Shown here one piece after another: positions 4,304-44,907 of a stretch of DNA of 49,175 nucleotides. Positions within the stretch are counted from its first letter, which is position 1. Every line of letters starts with the position of its first letter. Made by a program: the position numbers and the translations under genes. The DNA comes from an uncultured Roseiflexus sp. (GTDB lineage: Bacteria > Chloroflexota > Chloroflexia > Chloroflexales > Roseiflexaceae), in assembly GCA_937935075.1 (NCBI GenBank), contig CALGYB010000105.1, positions 1-49,175 of the forward strand, given 5' to 3'. The notes under the pieces were generated by a model. It saw nothing but the letters and a program-made list of their open reading frames with translations, did not search any database and was not told the origin of the DNA.

Positions 4304-4347
4304 AAACGCTCCACGTGCGAGCGCCTCTCGCCCCTTGCCTCCTGTTG

Positions 4348-6173: not shown

Positions 6174-6183
6174 GGCAGCCTCC

Positions 6184-26851: not shown

Positions 26852-26992
26852 TCGGTACGAATGTGATCGCCTCTTTGTGGCGAAACGGGCGAAAATGTCT
26901 TTACAGTGCGCAAATGGCGGTATATACTGGGCATTGTGGTCGTAATCCTAGAGATGCGGTATGTTTATTCCGCCTCTTGCAAGCGAGTTCAC

Positions 26993-28135
26993 ATGATCGA
27001 CCTCGCCAGCCAGGCGCAAATACGCGAAGCCATTGCCGATTGCATTCGCGCTGATCGGCGCGTGCTCGACCGATTGCGCGCAGAGATTCGATCTTTGAAG
27101 CACACAACATGCCGCATTCAGCCGCGCGCCGCAACGTCTATTTCACTGATCGGCGCCGACGGCGGCAACTGCCAACTGCGCTTCGATCCCTTCCTGATCC
27201 ATCTGGTGCGGGTGGTGGACAGCAGTAACAATGAGTACTGCCTGGAAGCGGTGTCTCCCACAACCCCGATCCGCCGGCTCAACGAGCGTCAGTTCGCTCC
27301 CGATGGATCGGCGCGCACGGCGCTTGGCGAGATGATGCGCTTTCTGGGTGTTGACAGCCTGACAGAACTTTCGCCCATGATCCGGTCAGCCAACCAGGAA
27401 CGACCGGTTTCTCGCCGCTGGGTAGAGGCGTACCGCGAACTGGTCGAGTGGGCCGTCTTGTTCGCTATCCTGAAGAAGGATTTTGGCGCCGATACCCTGA
27501 TTGTTCGTGATGGATTGCTGCGCAGTGTGGTGTTCGCCAGAGGTTTGTTTCAGCGCTTGCTCCGCGGTATGCAAGAGCGCGTCGATGCGCACTGGAGGAA
27601 CAATCGTCGCCGTATCCACCTCGTCGGCGTCGCCAAGCACAGCAAGGTGCTGTCCCGCTACCGCCTGGCGATGGCGCTCGAGGGGGTGCTGCACACCGAC
27701 TACCCGGCGTATGTGGAGGTGCCGCGTGAGTTGGAAGAGAAGTCCTACTTCCGGGCGGATTTCGCCCCGGGCGGCGACTATGCTGGCGAAGGCGACGACC
27801 CTGCCGGGTATGTCGGCGGCAGGATGTTTCTGGTGAAGTTCGGGTCGTATCGCCACGACCCGGTCTGGCCCGTAGACATCTTCGAGCCACAGACAGGCAA
27901 TGCTCAGGAAATTCTTGGTTCGCTGCTCGCCGATGCCGTGAACGGATTTCCGATCCCCTCCTACCCGCGTTGCCTGCAGAAAGCGCACGAGCATGCGGCG
28001 CTGGTCGATTTTGATTTCGACGTATTGCAGGATTTCATCTACGAAGGGGTGCGATCGACCCTCGGCACAGAGGCAGGCATCCTGGACGCTTTTCAGCTTC
28101 TGGATCCTGATCCATCGCAACACCGGTACGAATGA
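26993..28135 (+). CDS. nurA: NurA-type 5'-3' nuclease
   Basis: A 380-residue protein of the NurA family, the RNase H-fold nuclease that works with HerA on DNA ends in archaea and some bacteria. The two metal-binding aspartates are in SLIGADGGNCQL (Asp56) and TLIVRDGLLRS (Asp173). HLVGVAKHSKVLSRYRLAM (about 209-230) is the family's 'K-x-S' region, and FLVKFGSYRHDPVW and DFDFDVLQDF follow. The stop overlaps the HerA start (ATGA), so the pair is translationally coupled. I choose ATG 26993; a GTG at 26906 would add 29 residues including a hydrophobic run, which NurA proteins do not have. Confidence 0.82.
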   Translation: MIDLASQAQIREAIADCIRADRRVLDRLRAEIRSLKHTTCRIQPRAATSISLIGADGGNCQLRFDPFLIHLVRVVDSSNNEYCLEAVSPTTPIRRLNERQFAPDGSARTALGEMMRFLGVDSLTELSPMIRSANQERPVSRRWVEAYRELVEWAVLFAILKKDFGADTLIVRDGLLRSVVFARGLFQRLLRGMQERVDAHWRNNRRRIHLVGVAKHSKVLSRYRLAMALEGVLHTDYPAYVEVPRELEEKSYFRADFAPGGDYAGEGDDPAGYVGGRMFLVKFGSYRHDPVWPVDIFEPQTGNAQEILGSLLADAVNGFPIPSYPRCLQKAHEHAALVDFDFDVLQDFIYEGVRSTLGTEAGILDAFQLLDPDPSQHRYE

Positions 28136-30246
28136 GGGCGCCCGCCATGGCAGACATCCATCTCTTTCCCAAAGATAAAGTCGTTGGCATCTTTCGCGGC
28201 TTCCAGCACGGCGGTCTGGAGTTCCACGCCGATCTGGTCCTGCCGTACCGGAATGATTTTCAGAGTATCCCAATGCACGGTCAATTTCTCCTCGTCCAGA
28301 TGGAGACGCCCGATGAGGCGGTGTTGGGTCGTATCGCCTCCTTCTCCTCAGAGGGGAAGCTGGCTTACGGCTCTGGCGAGGAGTTCAACCTGCGCGCAAT
28401 CCGCGAGGATCGCCCGATCCCGGAAGATCTGCGCGAGCAGTACCTGAAGTATCGGGTCAACATTCGGGTGCTCGGCGTCCTGCGGCGGAACGGCGCGGGA
28501 TTGACCTTCGTGCCCTCGCATCGCCGGTTGCCCCACGTCGGCAGTCGGGTCGCCTTTCCGAGCGATGAGGTCTTGCGCGAGATTGCCGGTCACTACATCG
28601 ATGGGGCGCCGATTGGTCATCTCGCGTTGGGTGAGTATGTCTACGCCGCCGGCAGCGAAACATTCGAGCCGCGCGAATGGATGCAGGTGCTCTCACCGGA
28701 GATACTGGTGCGCTTCCCGATTGAATCGCTGGTGTCTCGTCGCAGTTTTATCTTTGCCCGCGCAGGCTTCGGCAAATCGAACCTCAACAAACTGCTTTTC
28801 TCGAAACTCTATGAGACGACCCCCTTCGTCACCAAACGCGGCGGCAAACGGGTTCCGGTGGGAACCGTCATCTTCGATCCAGACGGCGAGTATTTCTGGC
28901 CCGACGACAAGGGACGACCGGGTTTGTGCGATGTTCCCGAGTTAGAAGACAAGATCGTCGTCTTTACTGAGCGGAAGAGTCCGAGTCCCTTTTACCAGTC
29001 CTTCGTGGCGGGCGGCATCAAACTGGATATTCGCCGCCTCCGCCCGTCCGATGTGGTTTCGATTGCGCTCGATCCAGAACGCCAGGAGCAGCAGAATGTG
29101 CGCAAACTGCGCGGGTTGCCGCAGGAGCGCTGGGAGATGCTGGTCAACCTGATCGATGCCAACGGCAACACGGCGCCGCTAGACGAGGTCTGTCGGCTGC
29201 TCGATCTCGATCCGCAGCGTCAGGAAGCCGAGGCAGTGGCGGCCAGAAGCAATATGACGGTGATTGTGAAGATGCTGCACGACAAGAGCAGCCAACTGAT
29301 GGATATGCTGGTGCATGCGCTCTCCGAAGGAAAACTGTGCATCATCGATGTCTCTCAGATGCGCGGCAGCCAGTCGCTCGTGCTTTCGGGCCTGATCCTG
29401 CGCCGGATCTTCGACCGGAACCAGCAACAGTTCACCGAAGCCGATCCCAGGACGATCCCAACCATCGCGGTCGTTGAAGAAGCGCAATCCGTGCTGCACG
29501 ACAAGACATCCGCCGCCGAGCCGTACATCGCCTGGGTCAAGGAAGGGCGCAAGTACGACCTGGGCGCACTGCTGATCACCCAGCAGCCCGGCAGCATTCC
29601 GGTCGAAATCCTCAGTCAGGGGGATAACTGGTTCATCTTCCACCTGTTGTCGGCAGCGGATCTCATCGCCCTGCAACGCGCCAATGCCCATTTCAGCGAC
29701 GACTTGTTGAGTTCGCTGCTCAATGAGCCTATTCCTGGTCAGGGAATATTCTGGAGTTCAGTTGGCGGCAAGTCGTATCCGGTCAGCATTCGTGTCCTGT
29801 CGTTCGAGCAGTTGTACTCGATGCGCGATCCTTCCTACAACCGCCCCGCCGGTCATACCTATGCCCAAACATTGCATCGCATCTTCGCCGGCGTTGGCCA
29901 GTCTGCAACCATCACGCGCGTTCCCGAAGCCGAAGATGAGTTGTTTCCAGAAGCAGCCGAAAGCGGGTCGATCGATGTCATGGCGACAATCGAACAACGC
30001 GCCATTGAAGCCCTGCGCAATAATAGCGAGATCCGCCAGAAACTCGAATCTCCAAACGGCATGCCCTGGTATGGGGTCCAACAGTTCTTGATCAACTGCT
30101 TGCCGGAACACCTGGAAGACCGCCGTCAATTCGCCTACAACCTGGTCTCGAAGGCGATGAACGCCATCTTCGGACCCAAGCCCGTGGGATGGGAGGCCTT
30201 CAAGAATCCGGCTACGGGCAAAACGTGGATCAGGGTCAATCGGTGA
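28132..30246 (+). CDS. herA: HerA-family hexameric DNA translocase
   Basis: A 704-residue FtsK/HerA-superfamily ATPase that pumps DNA for the NurA nuclease. The N-terminal HAS-barrel (about 10-130) includes HGQFLLVQMETPDEAVLGRI. Walker A is ARAGFGKSNLNK with Lys215. IFDPDGEYFW (248-256) is the HerA-typical sensor block, and Walker B is TIPTIAVVEEAQSVL with Glu449/Glu450. GALLITQQPGSIP (about 475-487) is sensor-like and QGIFWSSVGGK follows. A C-terminal helical extension (about 595-704) is longer than in archaeal HerA. ATG at 28132 overlaps the NurA stop; ATG 28147 (MADIHLFPKD) is equally possible. It is followed after 112 bp by the three-TM gene. Confidence 0.85.
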   Translation: MRAPAMADIHLFPKDKVVGIFRGFQHGGLEFHADLVLPYRNDFQSIPMHGQFLLVQMETPDEAVLGRIASFSSEGKLAYGSGEEFNLRAIREDRPIPEDLREQYLKYRVNIRVLGVLRRNGAGLTFVPSHRRLPHVGSRVAFPSDEVLREIAGHYIDGAPIGHLALGEYVYAAGSETFEPREWMQVLSPEILVRFPIESLVSRRSFIFARAGFGKSNLNKLLFSKLYETTPFVTKRGGKRVPVGTVIFDPDGEYFWPDDKGRPGLCDVPELEDKIVVFTERKSPSPFYQSFVAGGIKLDIRRLRPSDVVSIALDPERQEQQNVRKLRGLPQERWEMLVNLIDANGNTAPLDEVCRLLDLDPQRQEAEAVAARSNMTVIVKMLHDKSSQLMDMLVHALSEGKLCIIDVSQMRGSQSLVLSGLILRRIFDRNQQQFTEADPRTIPTIAVVEEAQSVLHDKTSAAEPYIAWVKEGRKYDLGALLITQQPGSIPVEILSQGDNWFIFHLLSAADLIALQRANAHFSDDLLSSLLNEPIPGQGIFWSSVGGKSYPVSIRVLSFEQLYSMRDPSYNRPAGHTYAQTLHRIFAGVGQSATITRVPEAEDELFPEAAESGSIDVMATIEQRAIEALRNNSEIRQKLESPNGMPWYGVQQFLINCLPEHLEDRRQFAYNLVSKAMNAIFGPKPVGWEAFKNPATGKTWIRVNR

Positions 30247-30358
30247 CCGCCGTCCCACGTTCGACATGGGACATGCGCCGTGGTGCGCCGTTGCACCGCA
30301 ACGGCGCTGCCTGATGTATATGTGAGGGTGCATATGTCCGCAGAAGGGGGGAACGCTC

Positions 30359-32713
30359 ATGCTGGCATGCTGGGTGGTGCCGGCGCTCCTCACGGTTGCC
30401 GTTGTCCTCTTCATGTGGCTCGACGCGGCAAAATACCCCGACACAACGGCGCAGCGCCAGAAGGATCGACTGTGGCCCGCCGTATTCGTGAGCATCTCCG
30501 TCGCTCTGGTGTCCTATTCCGTGCTCGTCAGGGTTGAGGAGGATGTCGCCGCCGCGCAGGCATTCGACACAATCCAGACGCCGCTTGCCGGGCATCATCT
30601 CCTCATCCGTTACCCGCATACGCTCCGGTTCGACGCGCCTGAGACCGATCCACCGACGCTGACCGTTTGGGTCGAGCGCAACGCCGGCGCCGCACCACTG
30701 ACCGTCACTGTCGAACTGAGCAGCGCCACGCTCCTGTCCGTCGATGCCGCCGGAATGTCGGGCGAGCCGCGTCTGACATTGGGCGTCAACGGCGGATCGC
30801 GGTTGCAAGACGTGCGTCTTGGACCGCTGCGGTCGAACAGCGATGAGCGAGTGGTCGTTGATGTGACCGTCCGTGATGCAAGCGGGAAGGAATTGCTGAC
30901 GCAGCCGCTGACCATCGCGCGTGAGACGCGGGCGGCGTTCTACTGGCGTGTGTTTACGACTCGCTTCTTCGGCGATGCCGGGCTGGCGCTGGCAGTGGCG
31001 TCAGCCGTGCTCGGCATTGGCTGGCAACTGCTCAACGAAGGACGGCAGACGCGCGTCGGTCAGCAGCGTGAGCGCATTCGAGAACTACGCGATCTTTTTG
31101 AGCGTGACCTGATTGAATGGGCGCTTGTGTCCAGAACGCTGGAACAGGAAGCCAGGAAAGGCTGGGAGGAACAGGCGCGCCAGGAATTGCGCGAGGCTCT
31201 CAGGAAGCAAAACCAGCAACTGACAACCACGGCGACGCAGGTTCGCGTGAAACGTCTGTTGCACGACGCAGCCGAGTACTATCGCGCTGGCGATGTTCAG
31301 CGTTGCGCCACCGCCCTCGATCTCGTCATACGGGCGTATGCGTCGAAGGACGACCGCCTCACGGATCTGCCGCACCGGTTGTCGGACGCGCGCACGGCAG
31401 ATAAGCAACAGGCTGAAACCATCCTGCGCGTCTGTGGAGTTCTGCTCAATCGCTTCTGGTTGGACGCAAATGAACTCGCAGCGGCGGCGCTCGAGGCAAT
31501 GGCATCGCAACCTGATGATCATGAAGCGAAACAATGTCTGTTGCATACGATTCGTGCGCCAGGCAATGAAGCCGACGCTGCGCTTAGCAAACTGGCGGTC
31601 AACGATCCCCGGATACGCGGGCATCTGACGAATCATTTTCCCTGGACCTTCGCGTGGGCGCCAATCGCGCCTGAGCCGGGAAGGGTCTTGCGAACGCGAT
31701 CGGTCACTCCCTGGTTGGAAGCCAACGGGCTGAAGATGCACCCATTCGACGCACACGAGTTGCAGGCTCACCAAGCCTTTCTGGAGCGCGTCACCCTGCC
31801 AGCGGCGCAACGAGCGGCTATAATACAGTCACAATTGCTGGTGGCTGTCGGACTCCGATTTGATCGCTATGTCGCTGCGATTGCACTCTATCACGAACTG
31901 CACCAGCCAACCGCACGACAGATGCCGGTCATGGTGACGCTGTTCGACCACGACACCGCAGGACACCCCGCGCTGTTGAGCCGTGTCGCGCAGGCGGCGG
32001 GAAAAACGTGGGTCCGACTGATCGCCGATCAGCCGGGGGTGTTGTTGTGGTTGCCGGAAGATGAACAGGCGCTGCTGGCGGAATGGTTCGTGTGGTTGAG
32101 CGGTTCGCCGCAGGCAGTGCGGCAACAACTCCGACGCGCCGGGTTGCAGAGCGGCATTCAGGAGCAGATCGTTCTTCGTCAGCTTGATCCGTTGCTGTCC
32201 GGTGCTGATCGATCGACGCCGCATTCCGACAGGTTGCTCAACTGGCTGGCGATTCGTCCGCCGGAAGTCAGTCATATGTGCGTGATCGCCATCGATCACA
32301 GCGAAAATCAGCGTGCCGGACTGCTTGCCGAACTCCTGTTGAAGACGCAGGATGCCGGAGTGGTATGGAAGTTGTTCACCTCACCGACGCGCAGGCGAAT
32401 GGTCGAGGAGGTTGACGGTATTGCTCTGGAATGGTCTGAACACGAGTTGCTCGCACTGCTGGACTTCGCGGTTGACGGTGCAGGCGGACCCGGGCAAACC
32501 CTGATCGATCTTCTGGAGATGGACGATCCTGCATTGAACGAAGAAGAGTTCCTGCGCACCGTGTTGAAGCACGCGCATGGTTCGTTCGAGCGCGCACTGG
32601 CGATCTGCCGGCGCGCGCTGGCGCATCATCTCGATACCGTCTCCGATCCGAACGATCCGAACTATCCTTTCCTGAACGAGCATGATTTCAAAGCTGCCCT
32701 GCAGCGCACGTGA
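30359..32713 (+). CDS. Three-TM membrane protein with large cytoplasmic region
   Basis: A 784-residue protein I cannot assign to a known family. Visible parts: TM1 at about 4-22, TM2 at 38-57, an outside-facing beta-rich domain at about 75-190 (LTVTVELSSATLLSVDA, RVVVDVTVRD), TM3 at 205-224, then a charged coiled coil at about 230-300 (QRERIRELRDLFERDLIEW, QARQELREALRKQNQ). The remaining 480 residues are predicted cytoplasmic and mixed alpha/beta, with the acidic ELLALLDFAVDGAGG near the end. GGGG before the ATG is a good ribosome site. The layout, periplasmic beta-sandwich joined through a coiled coil to a large cytosolic part, suits a sensor or anchor. Three bp separate it from the winged-helix NTPase, so the two are coupled. 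Confidence 0.65.
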   Translation: MLACWVVPALLTVAVVLFMWLDAAKYPDTTAQRQKDRLWPAVFVSISVALVSYSVLVRVEEDVAAAQAFDTIQTPLAGHHLLIRYPHTLRFDAPETDPPTLTVWVERNAGAAPLTVTVELSSATLLSVDAAGMSGEPRLTLGVNGGSRLQDVRLGPLRSNSDERVVVDVTVRDASGKELLTQPLTIARETRAAFYWRVFTTRFFGDAGLALAVASAVLGIGWQLLNEGRQTRVGQQRERIRELRDLFERDLIEWALVSRTLEQEARKGWEEQARQELREALRKQNQQLTTTATQVRVKRLLHDAAEYYRAGDVQRCATALDLVIRAYASKDDRLTDLPHRLSDARTADKQQAETILRVCGVLLNRFWLDANELAAAALEAMASQPDDHEAKQCLLHTIRAPGNEADAALSKLAVNDPRIRGHLTNHFPWTFAWAPIAPEPGRVLRTRSVTPWLEANGLKMHPFDAHELQAHQAFLERVTLPAAQRAAIIQSQLLVAVGLRFDRYVAAIALYHELHQPTARQMPVMVTLFDHDTAGHPALLSRVAQAAGKTWVRLIADQPGVLLWLPEDEQALLAEWFVWLSGSPQAVRQQLRRAGLQSGIQEQIVLRQLDPLLSGADRSTPHSDRLLNWLAIRPPEVSHMCVIAIDHSENQRAGLLAELLLKTQDAGVVWKLFTSPTRRRMVEEVDGIALEWSEHELLALLDFAVDGAGGPGQTLIDLLEMDDPALNEEEFLRTVLKHAHGSFERALAICRRALAHHLDTVSDPNDPNYPFLNEHDFKAALQRT

Positions 32714-32716
32714 GCA

Positions 32717-34102
32717 ATGGAACCAGATCGCCACAGCATCGCTGCTGAAGCGCTCGATGCACTCGCGGCAGAGCGCGAACCACATCTGCAACCGGCGGTG
32801 TTCGTCGAGCCGCCGCAGTATGCAGCGTATGCCGGTATGCGCTCGTTTGTGGTATTCGGTGATAGCGGCTCAGGCAAAACAGCCCTGCGGCTGGCGCTGA
32901 TGCGCCGGACAGCGCCGGCGGATGCGCCGCCGACGCACCTGGTCGTTCAATGGCAGCCCGATCCGGTCGAGGGGGTGCAGGGCAGCCCCGCCGTGCGCCT
33001 TTTCGTGCGCCAGGCGCTGGAAGCCTGCGCCACGACACTGCTCACGACGTTCGCCCGCCACCCGTATCTGTTTCACAACGCGCCGCCGACCGCGCAGACG
33101 GCGTTGCACTGGTTTATCCAGACCTTCGCAGGTCAAGATCAGCATCATCTCCTTGCCGTCATCGAAGAGGAGGGCGGGTCTGCGGACGGTGTCTCCCTCT
33201 CCCGTCACCTGATCACCAATCCCGCGTCGCCGGCGCTGCACGCCGACGTGGCCGAACAACGCATCATTGCGCTCCTGACCACCACGCTCCAGCGGATGGG
33301 CATGCGCGGCGTGTGGGTCATGGTCGATGGGTTCGAGCCATGGCTGCACAGCGCCGCGCCTGCCCTATCGGATCTGTTGCTGGCCATTCTCTCGACGCTT
33401 GAACTCTTCGACCTGAACGGCTTTGCGATCAAGATGTTCGCTCCACACGCGCTGGAACCGATCATCACCGGCAGTTGGGGCGCGATCAAAGGGCGCGTCG
33501 ATCTTTACACTCTCTCCTGGACGCCCGATCAGCTGGCACTGATCACCGAACGCCACATTGCGGCGAAAATCGGCAGACCGCAGGCAACGCTCGGCGATCT
33601 GTGCGCGGCGGATCGTGATGTGTACGCCTGGCTGCAACGCTACGGCGGCAGCACACCGCGCGGCTGGCTCAAACTCATCCGCCCGCTGGTCGATGCCTTC
33701 CTGGCATCCGGCGCGTCGCAGCCCCTGTCGCGCGATGCCTGGCGTGTGGTGCAGCGCACCAATCCTCCCCGCCTCTCCATCGATCTCGCAACCGACCGCG
33801 TCTTCATCGGCGATGCCGAGGTCAGCGGATTGCAACCGCGCCCCTACCGCCTGCTGCGCTACCTGTACGAGAACCGCACGCGGCGTGTGCCGCGCAGCGA
33901 ACTCTACTACCGCGCCTATCAGGGGCTTGCCGAAGAACCGCGCGCCCACGACGACCGCGGCTGGGAAGACCCTGCCGATTGGAACAATGTGCTCGACAAT
34001 GCGCTGTTGCGCCTGCGCAAAATCATCGAACCCGATCCGCGCCATCCGGTCTATATTCTGACCGACCGCGGCTGGGGTGTGAAACTGGAGAATGTAATAT
34101 GA
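32717..34102 (+). CDS. P-loop NTPase with C-terminal OmpR-type winged helix
   Basis: A 461-residue fusion. Residues 30-345 are a STAND/AAA-like NTPase: Walker A GDSGSGKT (48-55), Walker B GVWVMVDGFEPWL with Asp204, and the motif IKMFAPHALEPI (238-249) before VDLYTLSWTPDQL. Residues about 352-460 are an OmpR/PhoB-type winged helix: ATDRVFIGDAEVSGL, PRPYRLLRYLYENRTRRVPR, and LLRLRKIIEPDPRHPVYILT ending in RGWGVKL. The recognition helix suggests DNA binding controlled by NTP. It is a paralogue of the next gene, which has the same NTPase core and motif but no winged helix. It starts 3 bp after the membrane-protein stop. Confidence 0.72.
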   Translation: MEPDRHSIAAEALDALAAEREPHLQPAVFVEPPQYAAYAGMRSFVVFGDSGSGKTALRLALMRRTAPADAPPTHLVVQWQPDPVEGVQGSPAVRLFVRQALEACATTLLTTFARHPYLFHNAPPTAQTALHWFIQTFAGQDQHHLLAVIEEEGGSADGVSLSRHLITNPASPALHADVAEQRIIALLTTTLQRMGMRGVWVMVDGFEPWLHSAAPALSDLLLAILSTLELFDLNGFAIKMFAPHALEPIITGSWGAIKGRVDLYTLSWTPDQLALITERHIAAKIGRPQATLGDLCAADRDVYAWLQRYGGSTPRGWLKLIRPLVDAFLASGASQPLSRDAWRVVQRTNPPRLSIDLATDRVFIGDAEVSGLQPRPYRLLRYLYENRTRRVPRSELYYRAYQGLAEEPRAHDDRGWEDPADWNNVLDNALLRLRKIIEPDPRHPVYILTDRGWGVKLENVI

Positions 34103-34352
34103 CCGTCGCCAGCATGCATGTGAGGTTCTGGTGAGAATGCGGTGATGCAGCTGATAGCAGTGTGTGAATGGGCGGCATGGCGCGTGTAGTATACTGACCA
34201 TTGGCGTCACATTCGACACGTTTGGGACGTGCGTCCGCAAGACAAGATTTGTCTGCGATTGTGAGGTCAGAGCGCTGTGCGGCAGGATGCTATCGGAGTT
34301 GCGGCATTGATGGCTATGGTGTGCAAAAACATTTTGTACCTTTGGATTGTTT

Positions 34353-35552
34353 ATGAACGCTTTAGAAGACAATCATCTCTCAGCACAGACCCTTTCCGCC
34401 GACTGGTTTCGGCGCATTGGTCTGCGGTTCGACCCCTACGTTCACCTGGAAGCCTCGAGTGATCCGCACCTCTCTGAGTATACGGTCAACCTCGACATCT
34501 TCCGCACCGCCTGGGATGCTGCGTCGGCGGTCATTTTTGCGCCGCCGGGAGGCGGCAAAACGGCGATGCGCGTCGCCGTCACCCGTACCTGCTGGTACGA
34601 CATCGGCGGCGCCTATCCTTTCCCGCTGCCGTATAACCTGGGTGCAGCGCCGCTGATAGGCGCGCCGCCAACCGCTGCGCAGCATCTGCGCCTGCTGCTC
34701 GAAGCCGGAACATGCGCGTTGCTCACCGGTCTGGCGTTTCGACCGGAACGGTTGTTGCGGGCTGCTCCCGCCGATATTCGCGCTATCGTCGGCTTGCTCC
34801 GCGCCGGGTTGCCCGGTCCGCTCGAGTATTACCTGGACGTGCTGCGTGAAACCGGCACGCCTGCCGGGTTGACCCCGCTTCTCGAGCGAACCTATGCGCT
34901 CACCGCGCCGCCGCTGCCGGAAGCGCTCCGCCGTTTCTGCGATATCGTTGGGCGGATCGACGCCGATGCCATGCGTGGGCAACCGGAGGACCTGTTCAGT
35001 ACCTTCGTCGATCTGACGACCAGCGCCCTGGGATTCGGTCACGTCCTGATCCTGATCGACGGCGTCGATGCCATTTACGAGAATCAGGCAGACAACCGGC
35101 TGGCGCTGCAATGGGTCGCCGATCTATGTGATTATTCCAAAATGTGGCGAGAACGGAACGTTTTCATCAAACTCTTCGCTCCTGACATCATCGAACCACA
35201 CATTGCCGGGTATCTCCAAACGCACGCCATTGCCGCACAGATTGCCCGTATTGTCTGGGACCCCGATCTTCTGGCGGAACTGCTGCGCAAACGCATCTTT
35301 GCCGCCTCCGACGGGCGGTTCGAGTCGCTCGATGCCATCAGCACACCGGCGCTCACCGATGTGGAACGGCAGATCGTCGCTGCGATCACGCCGCTGCCGC
35401 GCGTCGCGCTTCAGGTGACGCGACGCGCGCTCCTGCACTACGCAGCACGGATGGAAGAGGGACAACTCGATGAAGATGACATACGCTGCGCAATCAACTG
35501 GTATCAATTCCATGCGGCGCCGCGCCTGCAAGGGTCGGCGTCGCGTGCTTAA
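34353..35552 (+). CDS. P-loop NTPase paralogue without winged helix
   Basis: A 399-residue NTPase. Walker A APPGGGKT is at about 63-70, Walker B VLILIDGVDAIY with Asp236. IKLFAPDIIEPHI (about 272-284), then IVWDPDLLAELLRKRI, aligns directly with IKMFAPHALEPI and LSWTPDQLALITERHI of the preceding gene, so the two come from one duplication. The C-terminus (about 300-399) is helical and ends without a DNA-binding domain. The 250-bp space before it holds no gene; a TATACT at 34190-34195 may mark a second promoter. The start could be TTG 34347 or ATG 34353; neither has a clear ribosome site. No reaction beyond NTP hydrolysis can be claimed. Confidence 0.68.
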   Translation: MNALEDNHLSAQTLSADWFRRIGLRFDPYVHLEASSDPHLSEYTVNLDIFRTAWDAASAVIFAPPGGGKTAMRVAVTRTCWYDIGGAYPFPLPYNLGAAPLIGAPPTAAQHLRLLLEAGTCALLTGLAFRPERLLRAAPADIRAIVGLLRAGLPGPLEYYLDVLRETGTPAGLTPLLERTYALTAPPLPEALRRFCDIVGRIDADAMRGQPEDLFSTFVDLTTSALGFGHVLILIDGVDAIYENQADNRLALQWVADLCDYSKMWRERNVFIKLFAPDIIEPHIAGYLQTHAIAAQIARIVWDPDLLAELLRKRIFAASDGRFESLDAISTPALTDVERQIVAAITPLPRVALQVTRRALLHYAARMEEGQLDEDDIRCAINWYQFHAAPRLQGSASRA

Positions 35553-35637
35553 GAGTCGTAGTCAACCCTGTCTGGAAGGAAGCGTCCGCCGGTTTTTGCG
35601 GCGAACGCTGCTTCTGACTCAGGGAAGGGAGGATGGT

Positions 35638-37035
35638 ATGACTCTGCCTCGTCCCCCGGCATACCGTCCGGGGCTGTTTGTCAACCGCGAAAGTGAAATC
35701 GGACGGGTGAGGGATGCCCTTCAGGACATAGCAGGCAGGAAAGCGGAACATGCGCGGACGATCGTGTTTCGTGGCGAACGTGGTTTGGGCAAAAGCTGGC
35801 TGGCGCTCCACCTCCACCGGCACGTTTTGAAAGAGGAAATGCCGCATCTGTTGTCGCAGCATCGCATGGTGTCGTTGCTGATCAATCTGACCCCGCCATC
35901 TGACCATTCCGTTGACGAAACCGCGCCGGAGGGAGAGTGGCATGTCACCCGCGAAGAAGCCGCGCGCATCGCTGCTCAAGACGATCAGGAGTTCGAGCCG
36001 ATTCTCCGGCGCTTGCTGAACTGGCTGGCGGAACAACTGGACGTTATCCGCGCCCCGCATGCTCCTGTGCGCGATCTCGCCTCCTGGCTGGCAAGGGATG
36101 TCCAACAAAAACTGGAGAAAGAACCGAACCTCTTGATTTGTCTGACTCTCGATTCGGTCTTTGAAACGAATCAGGTGTTCCTCGATGCCCTGGAACGGCA
36201 CGTTCTGGGGGCGCTGGCGGCGCTGCCGCGGGTGCTGATGATCATGACCGGGCGCGGACGACCGTATCTCTGGAAGTCGCCCTACCTGCGCGCCGAGCGC
36301 GAAGAACAACCGCTCAAACCCTTCATCGCCGACGAGGTCGTCGATCAAATCCGTCGCGCGCTGCGCGATACGCCTGATCTTCCTGAAACGGTCAATACCT
36401 TATCAGGCGACGCCCTCCTCCGACTGGCAGAACGGGTGATCGCTACCGGTGGCGGATACCCGCTGACCAATCATCTGCTGGCGCTTGCGCTCGTGCAGCA
36501 GGCGCTCGACGTGCTGCCCGACGATCAGCGCGACAATGCAGAGCGACTGACGAGCATCCTCGATCAGACGCAGATCGATGCGGCAATTCTTGAACAGGTC
36601 GCCGACCGACTGCTGGACGTCATTCCGACAGACGAACGTCATCGTCTGCGCGAGGCGTTCGAGGCGCTCTGCGTGCTCAAAGACGGGTTCCGCGAGAATG
36701 AAATGCCCTATCTCCTGGCGGCGCGGCGCAACACAACGCCTGAAGAACCGGAATATGCGCTGCCGGCAATACGCAACCTGCGTGATCGTCTGCTCGAAAC
36801 CAACCTGGTGCGCTGGCGGGACAAACGCTACGCGATGGACGAAGCCGTGCGCGCAGTGCTTGAAGCATACCTGAAGCTCGCCCGCCCTGACGTATGGAGG
36901 CGTCTGCACGAAAGCGCAAAGCAGGTGTATGGGGAATGGGGAGAGAAGTACCGCAGCGCATACTACCGTGATCGGGCTGCGTTTCACGAACGGGTGCTGA
37001 GTGAAGCAACCGACGCCATGGTTAACGTGAGATGA
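35638..37035 (+). CDS. STAND-like P-loop ATPase
   Basis: A 465-residue ATPase. Walker A GERGLGKS is at 46-53, and a hhhhD-type strand NLLICLTLDSVFE serves as Walker B. PALPRVLMIMTGRGRPYLWKS is a sensor-like strand. The C-terminal third (about 330-465) is helical, with ERHRLREAFEALCVL and winged-helix-like RDKRYAMDEAVRAVLEAYL, as in the HETHS/winged-helix arm of STAND proteins. ATG 35638 (MTLPRPPAYRPGL) is chosen because GGAAGGAGG precedes it; the upstream frame to 35470 overlaps the previous gene and has no family sequence. It ends 13 bp before the STAND-TPR gene, giving a tight pair. Confidence 0.68.
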   Translation: MTLPRPPAYRPGLFVNRESEIGRVRDALQDIAGRKAEHARTIVFRGERGLGKSWLALHLHRHVLKEEMPHLLSQHRMVSLLINLTPPSDHSVDETAPEGEWHVTREEAARIAAQDDQEFEPILRRLLNWLAEQLDVIRAPHAPVRDLASWLARDVQQKLEKEPNLLICLTLDSVFETNQVFLDALERHVLGALAALPRVLMIMTGRGRPYLWKSPYLRAEREEQPLKPFIADEVVDQIRRALRDTPDLPETVNTLSGDALLRLAERVIATGGGYPLTNHLLALALVQQALDVLPDDQRDNAERLTSILDQTQIDAAILEQVADRLLDVIPTDERHRLREAFEALCVLKDGFRENEMPYLLAARRNTTPEEPEYALPAIRNLRDRLLETNLVRWRDKRYAMDEAVRAVLEAYLKLARPDVWRRLHESAKQVYGEWGEKYRSAYYRDRAAFHERVLSEATDAMVNVR

Positions 37036-37048
37036 AGAGGAGGTTCCC

Positions 37049-40000
37049 ATGCATGAAGGTGAACGCTACACCGGCGCGTGGGCAACGCCTGACCTGATCG
37101 GGCGCAAGGAAATCCTCCGGCGGATCGATGAGGCGATCCACGCTGCTGCCGGTCTGTCGGTCGTGGCGCTGTATGGACCCGGCGGCATCGGCAAGACGCG
37201 CATTTTGAGCGATGCTCTGAAACGACAGACCGGCGGCGCCATTTACACCGCACAACGCCTGATCGACCTGTACGACATTCGCTACCACAGCAGCCTCGAT
37301 CTTGCCGCTGCGATCTGCGATGCACTCGATGTTGCAAAAGGGAGAGACTTTCGTCGATTTGAGCAGGCGCGCGATCAGCAGCGCAAAGCGCAGGCTTCTG
37401 GGGATGTCAGGCAGATTGCAGCATTGACCAGAGAAGCATTGCAGGCTTTCGCCGACGATTTCAATTATTTCTCGCAGAACCGGCGTGTTGTGATTGCCCT
37501 CGACACTCTCGAACGCATCGCCTATGGCGCCGGTGAACAACGTCCACCCTTTCAGGTTGCGCCGTCGTGGGAGTGGCTGGTTGAGTCGTTGCCCGCCTGG
37601 GGGAATGTCACGCTGCTGGTCGCCGGTCGCAATCAGATTACCCATCTCTTTCCAGATCTTCAGCAGCAAACCCATCTGACGCCTCTCAAAGTCGAACCAT
37701 TTACCGAAGATGAAACGCGAGATTACCTCGATGCTGTGGCGCAGGCAGCCGAAAACGCCGGTGAACAAGCGGTGGCGGACACATTACGCAGCCTGACGCC
37801 GGAACGCAGGCATCAGGTGTATCGTTACTCAGGCGGGTTGCCGATCCTGCTTGCGCTGCTCGCGGACTATATCAGCATTGCCGGGTTTGGCAAATTGCCG
37901 CCGATCGTTGAGACCGAGACCGACCCGGCGCGTGCCCGCGAGGTGCTCGAAGAACAGTTGATCGCGCGCATGATGGACTCACGGACGATCAGGGACACCC
38001 TCCAAATGCTCGGACGCGCGCCGAAAGGCGTCGATGCCGGATTGCTGGCGCACCTCCTCGATATCTCGCCCGACGAAGCACGCCATCGCCTCGCCATGAT
38101 CGAGCGTCTGTCCTTCGTCAAGGTGCGTAGCGAGCGTTACTTTCTGCACGACGAGATGTACGCCATTCTGCACCGGCAGATTTATAGCGCGCCGGACGAT
38201 GCCCCTGAAGCGGAGCGCGTCAACACTGCCATCATTCAATGGTATGCACAACAGATCAACGAGCGCCGCGAATCCCTCGATGAACTGTACGCGCCGATCG
38301 AACAACCGCGCCGCGCTGTCAGTGTTGCGCCGCGTATCGACTATGAGCGTATTGCAGCGGTTCAACAGGAGATCCAGCAACTGCTGATCGATCAACTCTC
38401 CTATCATCTGCGCCTTGATCCGCTCGAAGGATTCCGTGAGTATTTCCGCGATACCTTCTACACCGTGTTCACCGGCAATACCATGCTCGACATTCAGTTG
38501 CAGGCGGAACTTCTGGCATTTCTCGACGAACGTGATCGCTCAGGAGAGCAAGCGTCCATCGACGGTCTGGAGCGCGAGGTTGTACAGGGTGTTACGGCTA
38601 TTCGCCCGGTTGCCCGTCGCTATGCGGAGAACGATTACGATGGCGTCGTATGGGAAGCGCAACGGCTGCGGCAGGAACACCCTGGTCTTCTGGCGACGGC
38701 AGGGCGCACGACCGAAGCGGCGCTCGATGTGTGGGAGGCGCTCGCGCGAACCGGCAGGGCGAAGGAAGAATACCAGGACAGCGCCGAAACGGATCGACTG
38801 CTCGCAGCCGCTGAAGCGATTCTGGTTCCCGTCATTCGTTCGGCGTCTCCCGACGTCTCCGAGGCGCGGCGGTGGCGCGCCCACAGCCTGCTGGCGCTGG
38901 CGTACCACGCGCGCGGGTTCAGCCTGCGCGCTCGTGGTCAGACCCGTCCCGCAATCAAGGCATACCGCCGCGCTGCTGTGCTCTGGCGGCAGGTCGATGT
39001 GCCGATCTGCCTGGCGTGGACCCTCAACAATCTCGGGTTTGTCGAAGTGGAAGAAGGAAATAGCGCCACTGGATTGGCGCTGATCGAAGAAGCGCTGGAG
39101 ATCCGCAAGCAACTCGGCGCGCGTGCGCTGATTGGCACTAGCTACTCTGCGCGCGCGCGAACGCTCATCTATGCGGGTAGATATGCAGAAGCGAAAGAGG
39201 ATGCCGAACGCGCCCTGCGCCTGTTCCATGCGGTCGAGTATCGTCTTGGCACGGGGCTGGCGCTGCGCAACCTTGCCGAAGCATTGCGCCGGTCGGTCTC
39301 CAGAGGCGACGATCCGCAGGAACGGATGGCCGTGCTGCGTGAAGCGCGCGATTACGCAAATGAGGCATACTACATCTTTGAAGGCATTGGCGACCGGTTG
39401 CGCCAGGTCGAGTCGTTGATCGAAGAGGGGTGCGCCCTGCGCGATATGAGCGGTGTGCTCCGTGATCATCCGCTGCCAGGCGAAGACCTCACCGAGATGG
39501 CGCAGGACAGCCGTAACGCACTCGAGCAGGCGGCAACCCTGGCGCAGCAGATCGGCAACACCTTTCGTCACGTTGATGCACTGGTCAACATCGCCTATCT
39601 CGGCGCCAACGTTGGACGATTGGATCTTATCGAAAGCGGACTGGCGCGCGCGAAGGAGGCGATCCCCGGCGAGTATGTGATAACCGAGCGGGGACGGCCC
39701 GATCCAGCGGGGATGGGCATCCGCAACCGCCATCTGTTCACGCAACTTGCCAGGATCCATATGCTGCTCGGCGGGCGGCTGTTTGTCGCTGTTCAGGATA
39801 CAAAGTCTCAGAGTCAAGAGTCTCTTCGATCAATCGCCGAGGCATATGCGCGTTTCGCAGACCTGTTCGGCGCAGGAGCGCCTGTAGTCATCACATCCGC
39901 AGATGATACGCTTGATCGGGCGATCCGCCACTACACCCTTGCCTTCGAGTACGACCGACTTTACAACCCGCTCGACGCCAGGGTACGACGTGCGCAGGAT

Positions 40001-40153
40001 ATGGTGTACAACAAGATCAAGGCGCTCGGCGCCGATCAATTGAAAGTCGTTGCGGACGCCATTAAAGCCGTTGAGCGCGACTATCGCCTGGGCAGATCTG
40101 CAATGCGCGACTTGCTCGAAAGCCGCACGCTGCTTTTCGAGGAATTGGCATAG
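37049..40153 (+). CDS. Large STAND ATPase with TPR array
   Basis: A 1034-residue signal ATPase of the STAND class. The NB-ARC/NACHT-like Walker A is GPGGIGKT (43-50), Walker B is RRVVIALDTLERI (about 145-157), and the GxP-type motif is YSGGLPILLALLADYI (about 258-273). A winged-helix segment at about 315-380 (VDAGLLAHLLDISPDEARHRL) comes before a helical linker. TPR-type helix pairs run from about 560 to 870 (TLNNLGFVEVEEGNSATGLALIEEAL, YSARARTLIYAGRYAEAKEDAERAL, RNLAEALRRS). Such proteins stay closed until the repeats sense a signal, then oligomerise. No catalytic effector domain is visible. The last 73 bp overlap the convergent radical SAM gene. Confidence 0.75.
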   Translation: MHEGERYTGAWATPDLIGRKEILRRIDEAIHAAAGLSVVALYGPGGIGKTRILSDALKRQTGGAIYTAQRLIDLYDIRYHSSLDLAAAICDALDVAKGRDFRRFEQARDQQRKAQASGDVRQIAALTREALQAFADDFNYFSQNRRVVIALDTLERIAYGAGEQRPPFQVAPSWEWLVESLPAWGNVTLLVAGRNQITHLFPDLQQQTHLTPLKVEPFTEDETRDYLDAVAQAAENAGEQAVADTLRSLTPERRHQVYRYSGGLPILLALLADYISIAGFGKLPPIVETETDPARAREVLEEQLIARMMDSRTIRDTLQMLGRAPKGVDAGLLAHLLDISPDEARHRLAMIERLSFVKVRSERYFLHDEMYAILHRQIYSAPDDAPEAERVNTAIIQWYAQQINERRESLDELYAPIEQPRRAVSVAPRIDYERIAAVQQEIQQLLIDQLSYHLRLDPLEGFREYFRDTFYTVFTGNTMLDIQLQAELLAFLDERDRSGEQASIDGLEREVVQGVTAIRPVARRYAENDYDGVVWEAQRLRQEHPGLLATAGRTTEAALDVWEALARTGRAKEEYQDSAETDRLLAAAEAILVPVIRSASPDVSEARRWRAHSLLALAYHARGFSLRARGQTRPAIKAYRRAAVLWRQVDVPICLAWTLNNLGFVEVEEGNSATGLALIEEALEIRKQLGARALIGTSYSARARTLIYAGRYAEAKEDAERALRLFHAVEYRLGTGLALRNLAEALRRSVSRGDDPQERMAVLREARDYANEAYYIFEGIGDRLRQVESLIEEGCALRDMSGVLRDHPLPGEDLTEMAQDSRNALEQAATLAQQIGNTFRHVDALVNIAYLGANVGRLDLIESGLARAKEAIPGEYVITERGRPDPAGMGIRNRHLFTQLARIHMLLGGRLFVAVQDTKSQSQESLRSIAEAYARFADLFGAGAPVVITSADDTLDRAIRHYTLAFEYDRLYNPLDARVRRAQDMVYNKIKALGADQLKVVADAIKAVERDYRLGRSAMRDLLESRTLLFEELA

Positions 40154-41643
40154 CCGTAGCGCAGCAAGCGCAGCCCTTCGAGGCGCAGCACGTCGGGGAA
40201 AATTGCCTGGTAGATGCGGCAATTCGGCGATGTCACATCATATCGTCCGGTGGCGCGGTACGTTAGCGCCGGGCACCCGCCGGCGCACCAGTAACGCCAC
40301 ATGCATGCCCGGCATCCTTCCTTTTCATTAACCGGCACGTTCTGAATGCCAGTGGCGTCCTCGCGGATCAGGCGGAGGGGATCGGGCGCAGCCACATCGG
40401 TGACCGTGCGCTCGATCGCCATGTGACACTTCGCCACACCGCCACGATGGTCGATGACCATGTACGAATGCCCGACGCCACACGGGCGGTCGTGCGGCGT
40501 ATCGAGCCGCGCCAGGTTGGTGAGCGCGCCAAGCGGATTGTAGGGCGGGAGGCGCCGGGCAATGACGGCGAACGCTTCCCGCATCGCCGCGATAATCTGC
40601 TCATCCTGGAAGGAAAGATCGGCAGCGTGAGCGGAACAATCGTTCTCTCGGTAGAAGTTGAGCGCAAACGGCAATCCGCGATCCAGCACATACTCGACGG
40701 TTGCCGCCAGCCCGGCGAGGTTTCGGCGTGACAGTGTGATCGAAATCGAGGGAGTGACGCCGAGTGCCGCCAGCTGGTCAAGCGTCCGTGCAATGCAGGC
40801 AAACGAACCGCGCCCGTTGGCGAAGCGGCGATTGGCATCGTGCGCATCGCCGATGCCGTCGAGTGAGATCATCAGGCGCAATCCGCCGTCGCGCAGGGCA
40901 CGGATCAGACGGTCGCCGAGCGCCACGCCGTTGCTGAGCACAACGCCATCAAGCGCCAACCCGTGTCGGGCTGCACATTCGCGTGCATACCGGTGGGTTG
41001 CAATGACGAGTGGAGCGTTCAACGTCGCCTCGCCGCCGGCATACTTCAGTTTGATCCGTCGGAAGCCGTGTGCCACCGCAGAACGAACCACGGCATCGAC
41101 CGCCTGCCTGCTACGCGCCGTGGACATGGCATCTGCGGTTTTGCGGACGTAACAGTAGTCGCAGCGCAGGTTACACGCATTGGTGACATGCAGCCAGGCG
41201 GTAAGCGTCTGCGGCGTCGCGCGCTTTGTACAAGCCGGTCGGTCGAGGCGTTGGAGCAATTCCAGTTTGGCGAGGCGCTGCGCCGCCCGATGCAGATTGT
41301 CATCTTCTCCGGCGGCATCCGCCAGCCGTTGAGGCCGACGAAACCGATTCAGCAGCGCCCATGCCGCCTCGTTGAGCACCACGACGCCTGCGCTGCCGAG
41401 CGGATTAAACGCCAGCACGTAGCCGCCGGGAAGTGTGTCGGTATGAAGTGCAGCCGTCTGGTACGCAACTGACTCGTCTACGGCGTCTTCAGCAGAGGGT
41501 GCGGGGCGTTCCGCCGGACAGGCGCAGTCGGTCTCCGGCGGAGCGAAGCAGTCGGTTTCAACGGCGCCAACCCCCTGATATGCCAGATCTGCCGCACACA
41601 GGATGAGCGGTAATACCGCAACGGGTCGACTCGCGTTGTTCAT
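40081..41643 (-). CDS. Radical SAM/SPASM maturase with PqqD-like N-terminus
   Basis: A 520-residue radical SAM enzyme. The 4Fe-4S cluster binding C-x3-C-x2-C is Cys157, Cys161, Cys164 in ACNLRCDYCYV. GGEATLN, SNGVALGD and ISLDGIGDAH are the usual SAM-binding strands. The C-terminal SPASM region has Cys residues in CGVGHSYM, AKCHMAIE, CRACMWRYWCAGGCPA and SPNC, for auxiliary clusters. Residues about 70-130 (GYVLAFNPLGSAGVVVLNEAAW and so on) resemble a PqqD-like peptide-binding domain, so a peptide substrate is likely. The N-terminus has a Cys-rich stretch, ETDCFAPPETDCACP. ATG 41643 is preferred, with AGGAGG 5 nt upstream. No precursor peptide gene is found nearby. The 3' end lies inside the STAND-TPR gene. 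Confidence 0.82.
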   Translation of the reverse strand: MNNASRPVAVLPLILCAADLAYQGVGAVETDCFAPPETDCACPAERPAPSAEDAVDESVAYQTAALHTDTLPGGYVLAFNPLGSAGVVVLNEAAWALLNRFRRPQRLADAAGEDDNLHRAAQRLAKLELLQRLDRPACTKRATPQTLTAWLHVTNACNLRCDYCYVRKTADAMSTARSRQAVDAVVRSAVAHGFRRIKLKYAGGEATLNAPLVIATHRYARECAARHGLALDGVVLSNGVALGDRLIRALRDGGLRLMISLDGIGDAHDANRRFANGRGSFACIARTLDQLAALGVTPSISITLSRRNLAGLAATVEYVLDRGLPFALNFYRENDCSAHAADLSFQDEQIIAAMREAFAVIARRLPPYNPLGALTNLARLDTPHDRPCGVGHSYMVIDHRGGVAKCHMAIERTVTDVAAPDPLRLIREDATGIQNVPVNEKEGCRACMWRYWCAGGCPALTYRATGRYDVTSPNCRIYQAIFPDVLRLEGLRLLRYGYANSSKSSVRLSSKSRIADLPRR

Positions 41644-41907
41644 AAGAGCCTCCTGAATGCCGCGCTGCCATGTGCCGGACTCAATTCCTTCATCATCCAT
41701 AACCGCTGTATCAGCGCCGCTCCAATACGCGCATATGTCTACTATACCTCATTTCTGACGATTGTCTATATGCTCCAGAATGCCTTGCCTTCCTGATTCC
41801 AGCCAATGCGGGAGGGTCTCAGCCTGCCCTGACCGCTGCTCTGCCATGGTGCGCGCATCCACGCCTGCCGATGGTATTCTGCGAGCGTGCGTCGCCTTGC
41901 CTCGCCT

Positions 41908-42119
41908 CATACTAACTTACGGTCAGTCAGCCGCGATATTCGCGTGTTCGTTGGGCAAGGCGCAACGGTCAACGCGCGCCGGCAGTCCGTGTCGTGGACG
42001 CCTGATTGCGCAGTGGCATCAGCAGCCCCGGCGGGGCTTTCACTTGCTCAGCGAGGGCTTTCGCCCGCAGCGCCACGGCGCCCCGGCAGTGTTGTACGAA
42101 TGACCGCACATTAGTATAA
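41908..42119 (+). repeat. Dispersed repeat copy C
   Basis: It begins CATACTAACTTACGGTCAG and ends GAATGACCGCACATTAGTAT. The two ends are inverted relatives: the right end read back is ATACTAATGTGCGGTCATTC. It contains the common core CAACGGTCAACGCGC and GCGAGGGCTTTCGCCCGC. The part 41644-41907 has no gene that I can see. Confidence 0.8.
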
Positions 42120-42437
42120 CTTGCGGTCAGTCAGCCACGATGTTCGCATGTTCGTTGGGCAAGGCGCAACGGTCAACGCGCGCCGGCAGTCCGCCTGGCG
42201 GCTGAAGCCGCAGGCTACGGGCGCCAAGCCCGCCTGCGCGGGCTGCACCGGGCGATACCGGATTCTTTGCTCAAAAACCATTATTGACTTCACTGCAAAA
42301 AGCAACCACGAAGGTCACAAATGGACACGAAGGAAATGCTCTTCATTTTATGAACCTTCGTGCGCTTCGTGTCCTTTGTGGTTTAAGCCTTTGTGCAGTG
42401 GACTCAATATTGTCCAAATGACCGCGTATTAGTATCA
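42112..42437 (+). repeat. Dispersed repeat copy D, carrying a nested foldback element
   Basis: It overlaps the end of copy C by a few bases (TAGTATAACTTGCGGTCAG), so the two are head to tail. The left half matches the family up to about 42285. The right end GTCCAAATGACCGCGTATTA appears only after a 118-bp foldback element. The interior between 42186 and 42285 is replaced by GC-rich sequence. Confidence 0.75.
42286..42403 (+). mobile_element. CACGAAGG foldback element, nested
   Basis: From GACTTCACTGCAAAAAGC to GCAGTGGAC it carries the full palindromic set ACCACGAAGG ... CCTTCGTG ... CCTTTGTGGT. It is inserted into repeat copy D. No clear target duplication is visible here, unlike the copy at 21897-22016. 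Confidence 0.8.
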
Positions 42438-42459
42438 GCATCCCCTCTATGCTGAGCGT

Positions 42460-42890
42460 GCGCAGCGGCGCCTGCCAGAGTCGCCTACGCCGGGTGTGAA
42501 GTCCTACTGACGTGAGTCCGGTAGAGCGCATGCGCGCCCTTTGCGCACGCCGTCTGACGCTGAGTCGTCAGGAATGGTCAGGATTTGAGAGATGGCTTCT
42601 TTTTCTCTGGTTCCCTTTACGCCTGCCGTCCGATACTGATTGGTTGGTATGGCGGGCTGCCGCTTGACCTTTCATGCCGTGCTTGGACGCCGACATGCAG
42701 AAGTGATGATGCCCGTTCTGTAACAAAGCCGGCTGGCTTTGCGTAGATCGGGCAGAACCACTTCCAACCAGACGTCCTGCACCACATCACACCAGCGCAA
42801 CGCTCCCGGCGGCGGTTCGGGAGAGCCTGCGGAGAGGCAGGCGCAAGGTTCCCGCGAGGCGCACGATGCCAGTGCGCGAGCGACTGCACA
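42460..42890. ncRNA. Candidate structured RNA: series of stem-loops
   Basis: This gene-free stretch holds a run of exact stems: CTGACG/CGTCAG (42554-42571), GCCCG/CGGGC (42711-42753) enclosing CAAAGCC/GGCTTTG (42724-42741), CTCCCG/CGGGAG (42803-42823), GCCTGC/GCAGGC (42825-42842) and GCGCAC/GTGCGC (42859-42877). GTTCTG/CAGAAC (42715-42720, 42753-42758) offers an alternative pairing. No RNA class is recognised; RNase P, tmRNA and SRP RNA marks are absent. It may be a transposon-linked guide-type RNA or an intron remnant. The strand is unknown. Confidence 0.35.
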
Positions 42891-43214: not shown

Positions 43215-44273
43215 TTACCGGTCGGGCCAGTAGGAGACGAGCCGCCCCTGCGGGTTGTACAATCCGCCTGGATCGGTCTCCCGGTTGTTCCAGATCGATG
43301 CACTGCCGGTGTGCTTGAAAGCGCGCGTTTCACCCGGCGCCAGCGTGCCGCCGATGCCCTGGTGGATCTGGCTCCCCTTGAAACTGCACATGATCCAGCC
43401 GTCCAGATTGATCGGCTCGCTGCTGATGTTGCGCAGCGTCACCGTTTCCGTGCGCTTGTTGATCCCAACAATGAGCACCGGCGCATTTGGCGCTTTGGCG
43501 GCGTTGGGATCCGTTCGGCACTTGTTGTACGATGGCGGCGACGCCTGGTTCCCTGTGGCAGTGGGTGCGGCAGAAGGAGGGGGTGTGGCGGCGACAGGCG
43601 CGCGTTCGCCTTGCGGTGAGCGCAGCCGAACCGCGTTGCATGCGTCCGGCGCCCACAGCCCCGCCTGCGCTTCGCGCGCCGCGCGTTGCGCCGCCTTGAA
43701 CTGCTCCTGATACCGGTAGGGGGTTCGGAAGGTGTACTCGAAGCCATACCCCTGCGCAATAATCTCATAATTGATCAATCGTCCGTCGGGCAGCCAGACG
43801 AACCGCAGCAACCGATTGTACCGGTCGCGATCGCCCTGACTCGCGTCCGATTCGAGGAGCACGGTTTGACCGTCTGCCAATTCTGTGAGAAAGCGCGCGG
43901 CTTCACGCCCGAAGCACTCCACCGGGCGCGATGGATGGGTCGTCTCAGGCGTATCGACGCCGATCAGCCGGATGCGTCGCGTGCGTCCACTGCTCCCTGA
44001 GCCTGCCGAAGGGTTGAGCGTCACGTCGAGTGTGTCCCCATCGACAACAGACTTGACGACGGCACGTTCAAGACCGCTTGCCGGCATCGGCGGCGCCTGA
44101 ACGGTTTCAGTCGTTGCCGTCGGAAGCGGGGTTGCGGTGGCGGATTGTGCAACGCGCTGCGCCGGTTGCGCTCCTGCCGCGCCCGGACTGAGGGTTGCAA
44201 TCAGTGTGAACGTCAGCGCAAATGCGATAATGAGTCGGGAGACGCCGGGTGACGCTCTCCTGCGCCTGATCAT
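43215..44273 (-). CDS. Secreted thermonuclease with lamin-tail domain
   Basis: A 352-residue exported nuclease. The signal peptide is at about 1-35 (MIRRRRASPGVSRLIIAFAL and on). A Thr/Ala/Pro linker is followed by the staphylococcal-nuclease fold (about 68-210). DGDT is at 78-81, RIRLIGVDTPE gives the Asp107/Glu110 pair, and RDRYNRLLRF holds the catalytic Arg. The C-terminal lamin-tail domain (about 250-352: VTLRNISSEPINLDGWIMCS) is a beta-sandwich typical of secreted proteins. Two repeat-derived peptides are in frame: NPSAGSGSS (87-95), breaking the strand between TLDVTL and GRTRRIRL, and AVRLRSPQ (about 214-221) in the linker. ATG 44273 is chosen because the signal peptide starts there; a TTG at 44357 is an alternative. 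Confidence 0.82.
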   Translation of the reverse strand: MIRRRRASPGVSRLIIAFALTFTLIATLSPGAAGAQPAQRVAQSATATPLPTATTETVQAPPMPASGLERAVVKSVVDGDTLDVTLNPSAGSGSSGRTRRIRLIGVDTPETTHPSRPVECFGREAARFLTELADGQTVLLESDASQGDRDRYNRLLRFVWLPDGRLINYEIIAQGYGFEYTFRTPYRYQEQFKAAQRAAREAQAGLWAPDACNAVRLRSPQGERAPVAATPPPSAAPTATGNQASPPSYNKCRTDPNAAKAPNAPVLIVGINKRTETVTLRNISSEPINLDGWIMCSFKGSQIHQGIGGTLAPGETRAFKHTGSASIWNNRETDPGGLYNPQGRLVSYWPDR

Positions 44274-44804: not shown

Positions 44805-44907
44805 GCAGGTATGGGGAACTATCGCCGATGAGTGAGCAGGTGCGGGCAGCACCGTGCGCATCGTAGTGAGGGCGCATCGGCGCCCTTTGTGCTCTCAGCC
44901 CTGCGTT

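Follow-up and report, generated by a model that had tools for sequence, protein, structure and literature searches.

We analysed a window of 49,175 nt from an uncultured Roseiflexus sp. of the Chloroflexota (contig CALGYB010000105.1), in which two adjacent NTPase genes, N1 and N2, lie head to tail with 250 nt between them. The genes and sites that enter the analysis are the following.

30359-32713, forward strand: MEM, 784 aa, ending in a third paralogue of the N1/N2 core, one without Walker motifs.
32717-34102, forward strand: N1, 461 aa, a putative STAND/ORC-type NTPase with a C-terminal OmpR/PhoB-type winged helix.
32858-32881, forward strand: Walker A motif of N1, GDSGSGKT, from sequence and alignment.
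33767-34093, forward strand: winged helix of N1, residues 351-459, from Pfam Trans_reg_C, VIA-align and OmpR/PhoB sequence matches.
34120-34163, forward strand: predicted operator of 11-bp tandem direct repeats, GTGAGGTTCTG GTGAGAATGCG GTGATGCAGCT GATAGCAGTGT.
34190-34195, forward strand: TATACT, a -10-like hexamer 70 nt from the start of the array, without a consensus -35.
34353-35552, forward strand: N2, 399 aa, a paralogous NTPase without a winged helix and with complete active-site motifs.
34539-34562, forward strand: Walker A motif of N2, APPGGGKT, from sequence and alignment.
35638-37035, forward strand: N3, 465 aa from its ATG, an AAA/STAND NTPase of a different family.
37049-40153, forward strand: TPR-NTPase, 1034 aa, with an AAA_16/NB-ARC-like domain and TPRs, kept in the system loci.
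40081-41700, reverse strand: radical SAM/SPASM maturase-like protein with an N-terminal DCAC motif (Pfam Radical_SAM, 53.9 bits).

The membrane segments near the N-terminus of MEM are predicted, as judged by eye from the sequence. The N2 reading frame opens with a TTG at 34347, and its start was taken to be the ATG at 34353, which is common to the orthologues. N3 gives weak Pfam matches to AAA_22, AAA_16 and nSTAND6, and hhalign relates it to the TPR protein's N-terminus (E = 3.3e-16). Matches of the radical SAM protein to the NCBIfam nif11/PapB-like models fall below the cut-offs; its gene is convergent in the window, but in most other loci it is co-directional and comes last. A search for known RNA elements across 30000-42500 found none. 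Upstream of the block, NurA-like and HerA-like genes with a 4-nt overlap occupy 26906-30246 on the forward strand; they were rejected as members of the system because neither was seen beside the block in loci L050-L062. A 70-80-nt element, present in inverted and direct copies at 41906-42193 and 44628-44805 that are 85-95% alike, flanks 43215-44357 and is possibly a mobile or repeat element.

N1 and N2 share one NTPase core. The two proteins are 27% identical across 271 aa (BLASTP, E = 1e-10), their close-orthologue profiles align over 231 columns (hhalign, E = 4.4e-11, 97.2%), and phylum-wide profiles of 18 N1 rows and 18 N2 rows align over 324 columns with E = 4.2e-32. An earlier note made from the sequence had called the tandem genes paralogous NTPases, and the alignment bears this out, with the motifs that it quoted for both genes lying on conserved columns. 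The similarity is significant outside the Walker motifs: with Walker A and B masked, hhalign gave E = 3.1e-21 (99.4%), and the segment after Walker B alone gave E = 6.6e-16, while 20 column-shuffled control profiles gave E = 0.14-0.93. N1 and the unrelated NTPase N3 aligned over just 123 columns on the P-loop side (5e-6), and neither N3 nor the TPR NTPases matched the N1/N2 core beyond that side in hhalign. Both proteins being P-loop NTPases of modest pairwise identity, one could picture a common fold recruited twice, but this account is hardly credible and is refuted by the masked comparison, given also the match in the C-terminal half alone, the confinement of N3 and TPR matches to the P-loop side, and the placement of N1, N2 and their single-copy relatives in one family on the tree.

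The two proteins differ at their C termini. As the earlier note had stated, one gene encodes a winged helix and the other does not: N1 matches Pfam Trans_reg_C (PF00486) at 32.8 bits, above the gathering cut-off of 26.2, N2 has no match to this family, and N2 ends before the position of the winged helix in every orthologue. The modelled domain superposes on the DNA-binding domain of YycF (6cqg; VIA-align Z 13.3, rmsd 2.0 Å, 93 residues), its sequence matches include RegX3, RpaA, PhoB and KdpE, and the RLRK recognition helix and the wing are kept, with residues 402-418 forming a 17-residue low-confidence loop. Among N1-clade rows the winged helix stands at the end of the protein in 18/18 and carries the R(L/I)R recognition signature in 17/18, and no N2 row has it. 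N1 has no receiver domain with a phospho-Asp, its winged helix being joined to the NTPase core instead, and no BTA domain was matched in Pfam. A side branch of single-copy relatives (L054-L056, L105 and L106) has a recognition helix of RLT or similar rather than RLR and lacks the 11-bp array, which would fit altered or lost DNA binding.

The folds nearest to the N1 core model are ORC/Cdc6, TnsC and BrxC. N1 matches Cdc6 with Z 13.2 but an rmsd of 9.2 Å over 285 residues, and TnsC with Z 12.4 and an rmsd of 4.4 Å over 253. The structure models were each made from four sequences, with a mean pLDDT of 77 for N1 and 66 for N2, and the assignment of the core fold is therefore of moderate confidence. 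The N2 model found no PDB match at E ≤ 0.001, and among the matches listed, sequence relatives in the PDB covered only the winged-helix region. The N1 and N2 of the window have no match to Pfam ORC-CDC6-like, and the single-copy relative in L056 passes its cut-off (32.5 of 27 bits). Comparison of N1 and N2 with the PADLOC anti-phage defence models gave nothing significant (best E 0.056-0.059).

Close orthologues of N1 and N2 are adjacent in the genus of the window and in one member of another family, and a profile search across 400 Chloroflexota genomes yielded additional adjacent pairs. N1 lies upstream of N2 in 17 loci across the Chloroflexota, in all 17 of the gaps studied, so that the pair sought in other genomes does recur. 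The usual gene order is MEM or CHAT protein, N1, N2, N3 (AAA/STAND), TPR-NTPase and radical SAM, and these six genes occur in this order in several families, with L109 and L112 coming from named Caldilineaceae and Anaerolineae records. The pair thus belongs to a six-gene system with a degenerate third paralogue in MEM, which was absent from the earlier reading. Loci L052, L057 and L058 have one winged-helix NTPase and no N2, with the CHAT, N3, TPR and radical SAM genes again present. N2 adjoins every N1-clade protein except in L103. In that locus N3 and the TPR-NTPase are fused in one 1504-aa ORF (3237-7751, reverse strand), which suggests that the two proteins interact.

The C termini of MEM proteins match the single-copy NTPase (hhalign, E = 1e-15), N2 (1.2e-13) and N1 (2.4e-8), and have no hhalign match to N3 or TPR; the MEM core in the window has lost Walker A. 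The MEM gene abuts or overlaps N1 wherever both are seen, a tight coupling that suggests a holding or sensing role of MEM on behalf of N1. The slot before N1 is taken by the membrane protein in some lineages and by a CHAT-protease/NTPase protein in others (L052, L053, L058); the first component of the gene set is exchangeable. At the other end of the set, the radical SAM protein carries an N-terminal Cys-rich segment with the DCAC motif in one to four copies (four in L093), in the window (40081-41700) and in L050, L052, L053, L057-L060, L093-L099, L103, L109 and L112. The segment resembles a set of substrate-like repeats joined to the enzyme, and no separate RiPP precursor with a DCAC motif was found nearby as a conserved small ORF.

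In a tree computed without three long rows, N1 (96/92), N2 (91/83) and the single-copy relatives (99/93) each fall on one side of a branch; with the three rows included, N2 is not resolved as one group. The three groups argue for one old duplication. N1 and N2 contain the same two subclades (L053, L096, L097 and L112 versus the rest), as would be expected if the genes were inherited jointly. Since the winged helix is present in all N1 and nearly all single-copy proteins and in no N2, its loss in N2 is the simpler account. The earlier note had left it open whether N1 kept or gained the domain; its presence in the single-copy relatives makes "kept" somewhat likelier, though the tree is unrooted, and rooting it along the N2 branch would permit a gain instead. 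Of the N2 rows, 18/18 retain both the lysine of Walker A and the Pro-Arg motif, a count that omits the uncertain row L101_N2. In N1, by comparison, the Walker A lysine is lost in L053 and L109, and the arginine of the Pro-Arg motif in L053, L096, L097 and L112. The complete N2 active site set against these lapses points to N2 as the catalytic copy. The duplication with split roles that the earlier note had proposed is therefore upheld: N1 and N2 are separate clades, the winged helix is always in N1 and never in N2, and the active site is complete in N2 and incomplete in several N1 proteins.

The gap between the two genes, always ~100-430 nt long, contains 11-bp tandem direct repeats that are newly found here and recur at this place in most lineages. 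From 34120 the window reads GTGAGGTTCTG GTGAGAATGCG GTGATGC..., with a period of 11 bp. GTGAGGTTnnG-GTGAGA is the most conserved block of the Roseiflexus-type gaps; downstream of it, indels in the array are multiples of 11 bp. Over 17 gaps, the self-match sum at lag 11 was 311, compared with 227-259 at other lags. The mean lag-11 excess was 5.24 for 11 representatives and 0.26 for 98 control intergenic regions, with 0/20,000 control draws reaching the representatives' mean; three of the highest-scoring control regions adjoin the system's own MEM or radical-SAM genes. The pattern RTGAG-N6-GTGAG occurs in 12/17 gaps and is nearly absent from the rest of those loci. The lag and the motif were first chosen from the window's own alignment; the distant lineages serve as replication. 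In L053 and L112 the gap carries TGTC-type repeats in their place, again with a period of 11 bp, and similar 11-bp TGTC-type repeats lie between the NTPase gene and N3 in the single-copy loci L052, L057 and L058. No clear array was seen in the gaps of L096 and L109, and none was found for single-copy relatives such as L100, L101 and L054-L056, which have the winged helix.

Within the 4.85-Mb genome of the window, RTGAGR-N5-GTGAGR-N5-RTGA (≤1 mismatch) occurs once, at 34120. Across 10 genomes, 13 of the 24 matches to GTGAGR-N5-GTGAGR lie in the system's own locus, and the 11 matches outside it compare with 12 for a control pattern. The N1-N2 gap has no sigma-70 consensus promoter and no terminator; the best -10-like hexamers, picked by a simple score and suggestive only, lie mostly 48-82 nt from the start of the array and mostly on one helical phase. 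Tandem direct repeats of 11 bp at a candidate target promoter are the operator layout of OmpR/PhoB-type regulators. Near the MEM and radical SAM genes of the window, copies of the operator are not above chance. Additional 11-bp GTGAG repeats occur at L051:17757, L050:1696, L060:2539, L093:12535 and 12760, and L102:4194. All precede either the first gene or the radical SAM gene, and these genes too may be controlled by the regulator in some species. Because only N1 has a DNA-binding domain and matching repeats lie between the genes, N1 is probably the gene set's own genetic switch. Of the earlier suggestion that one partner is DNA-bound and the other free in a mixed oligomer, the DNA-bound part thus gains support from the putative operator.

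This arrangement resembles AfsR and other large SARPs of Streptomyces, which likewise combine an OmpR-type winged helix with a STAND-type NTPase. SARP/AfsR sites are 11-bp direct repeats near a -10 element; AfsR binds such repeats, and ATP relieves inhibition by its own NTPase and TPR parts (PMC10936776). In AfsR and the SARPs, however, the OmpR-type domain is N-terminal and followed by a BTA domain, whereas the winged helix of N1 is C-terminal and lacks one. Here, moreover, a separate protein carries the TPRs, the ATPase resembles ORC and Sll1717, and the neighbouring gene encodes a paralogue that lacks the winged helix. Unlike two-component response regulators, N1 carries its winged helix on an NTPase core with no receiver domain. 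The modelled core fold resembles, with moderate confidence, that of the AAA+ ATPases ORC/Cdc6, TnsC and BrxC, which also have partner subunits with lost active sites, and ORC/Cdc6 has a C-terminal winged helix as well. In contrast to these, N1 has a winged helix of the OmpR/PhoB response-regulator type, and its operon forms a sensing/radical-SAM cassette rather than one for replication, transposition or BREX. The best named relatives of both cores are the DS41_1 anti-phage protein (NF053860; 54.4 and 55.1 bits, far under the curated 370-bit cut-off) and the P-loop ATPase Sll1717 family (NF047389; 38.4 and 42.3 bits, far under the curated cut-off of 75 bits). The FxSxx-COOH (Fxs) RiPP systems pair an NB-ARC/TPR protein with an adjacent radical SAM maturase. 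The radical SAM protein here falls below the FxsB cut-off (56 of 370 bits), and a separate precursor peptide was not found. Radical-SAM conflict modules are another nearest theme (PMC7159879).

On the best reading, N1 would be an NTPase-gated OmpR-type regulator of the AfsR-like kind, a DNA-binding STAND/ORC-type protein controlling the N2-N3-TPR genes, and N2 its partner with the complete active site. An ancestral ORC/STAND-type ATPase gene with a C-terminal OmpR/PhoB-type winged helix would have undergone one old tandem duplication. N1, having kept the winged helix, would bind the repeats in the N1-N2 gap beside the -10-like hexamer, most likely acting as AfsR does on the N2-N3-TPR promoter with its DNA-binding domain at the opposite end of the chain. 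Its nucleotide state would set control of these genes, and in some species it may also control the membrane-protein and radical-SAM genes. For N1 and for the Walker-less MEM copy alike, N2 is the probable source of ATP turnover or gating, and it may turn the complex over. Computation shows the homology of the cores, the asymmetry between the two copies, the conserved gene order and the conserved 11-bp array; DNA binding by N1, the direction of regulation, ATP gating and a hetero-oligomer are inferred. We favour this explanation as a whole, from old duplication to N1 on the predicted operator, nucleotide-set control and turnover or gating by N2, with somewhat more than even confidence.

It is possible, if doubtful, that N1 is the regulator and N2 is not its partner, N2 belonging functionally to an N3-TPR sensing complex and being a paralogue by happenstance. 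The predicted operator does divide the operon into MEM-N1 and N2-N3-TPR, and the single-copy loci manage without N2; on the other hand, N2 is missing beside only one N1-clade protein, that of L103, and N1 and N2 share their two major subclades, although co-inheritance alone is no proof of contact. The boldest reading, which we regard as speculative and rather unlikely as it stands, is that three paralogous ORC/STAND cores make up a self-controlled switch, namely a membrane-anchored Walker-less copy (or the CHAT protein), a DNA-binding copy and a catalytic copy. Together they would perceive a signal by way of N3-TPR and activate a radical-SAM enzyme with its own Cys-rich substrate-like repeats. 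Less probable still is a mixed ORC- or BrxC-like ring of MEM, N1 and N2 without a role in transcription, in which the winged helix would anchor the ring to DNA or to a partner protein and the repeats would serve another regulator. The nearest core folds, the unequal preservation of active sites among the three paralogous cores and the abutting or overlapping MEM and N1 genes would all suit such a ring, and BREX combines winged-helix ATPases of the ORC/Cdc6 type with inactive STAND partners (PMC12839542). However, the array adjoins the gene that encodes the OmpR/PhoB-type domain, and its excess across genomes is restricted to this locus, which fits a dedicated local regulator.

A search of the available literature found no description of this gene set, which is undescribed yet widespread in the Chloroflexota. 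It now gains a concrete handle in a predicted dedicated DNA site with its putative regulator and a probable partner ATPase. If N1 is nucleotide-gated, the system would be an AfsR/MalT-like switch with an ORC-type core, distributed over two paralogues, and would bear on how DNA binding and catalysis are divided among the subunits of ORC-like assemblies.
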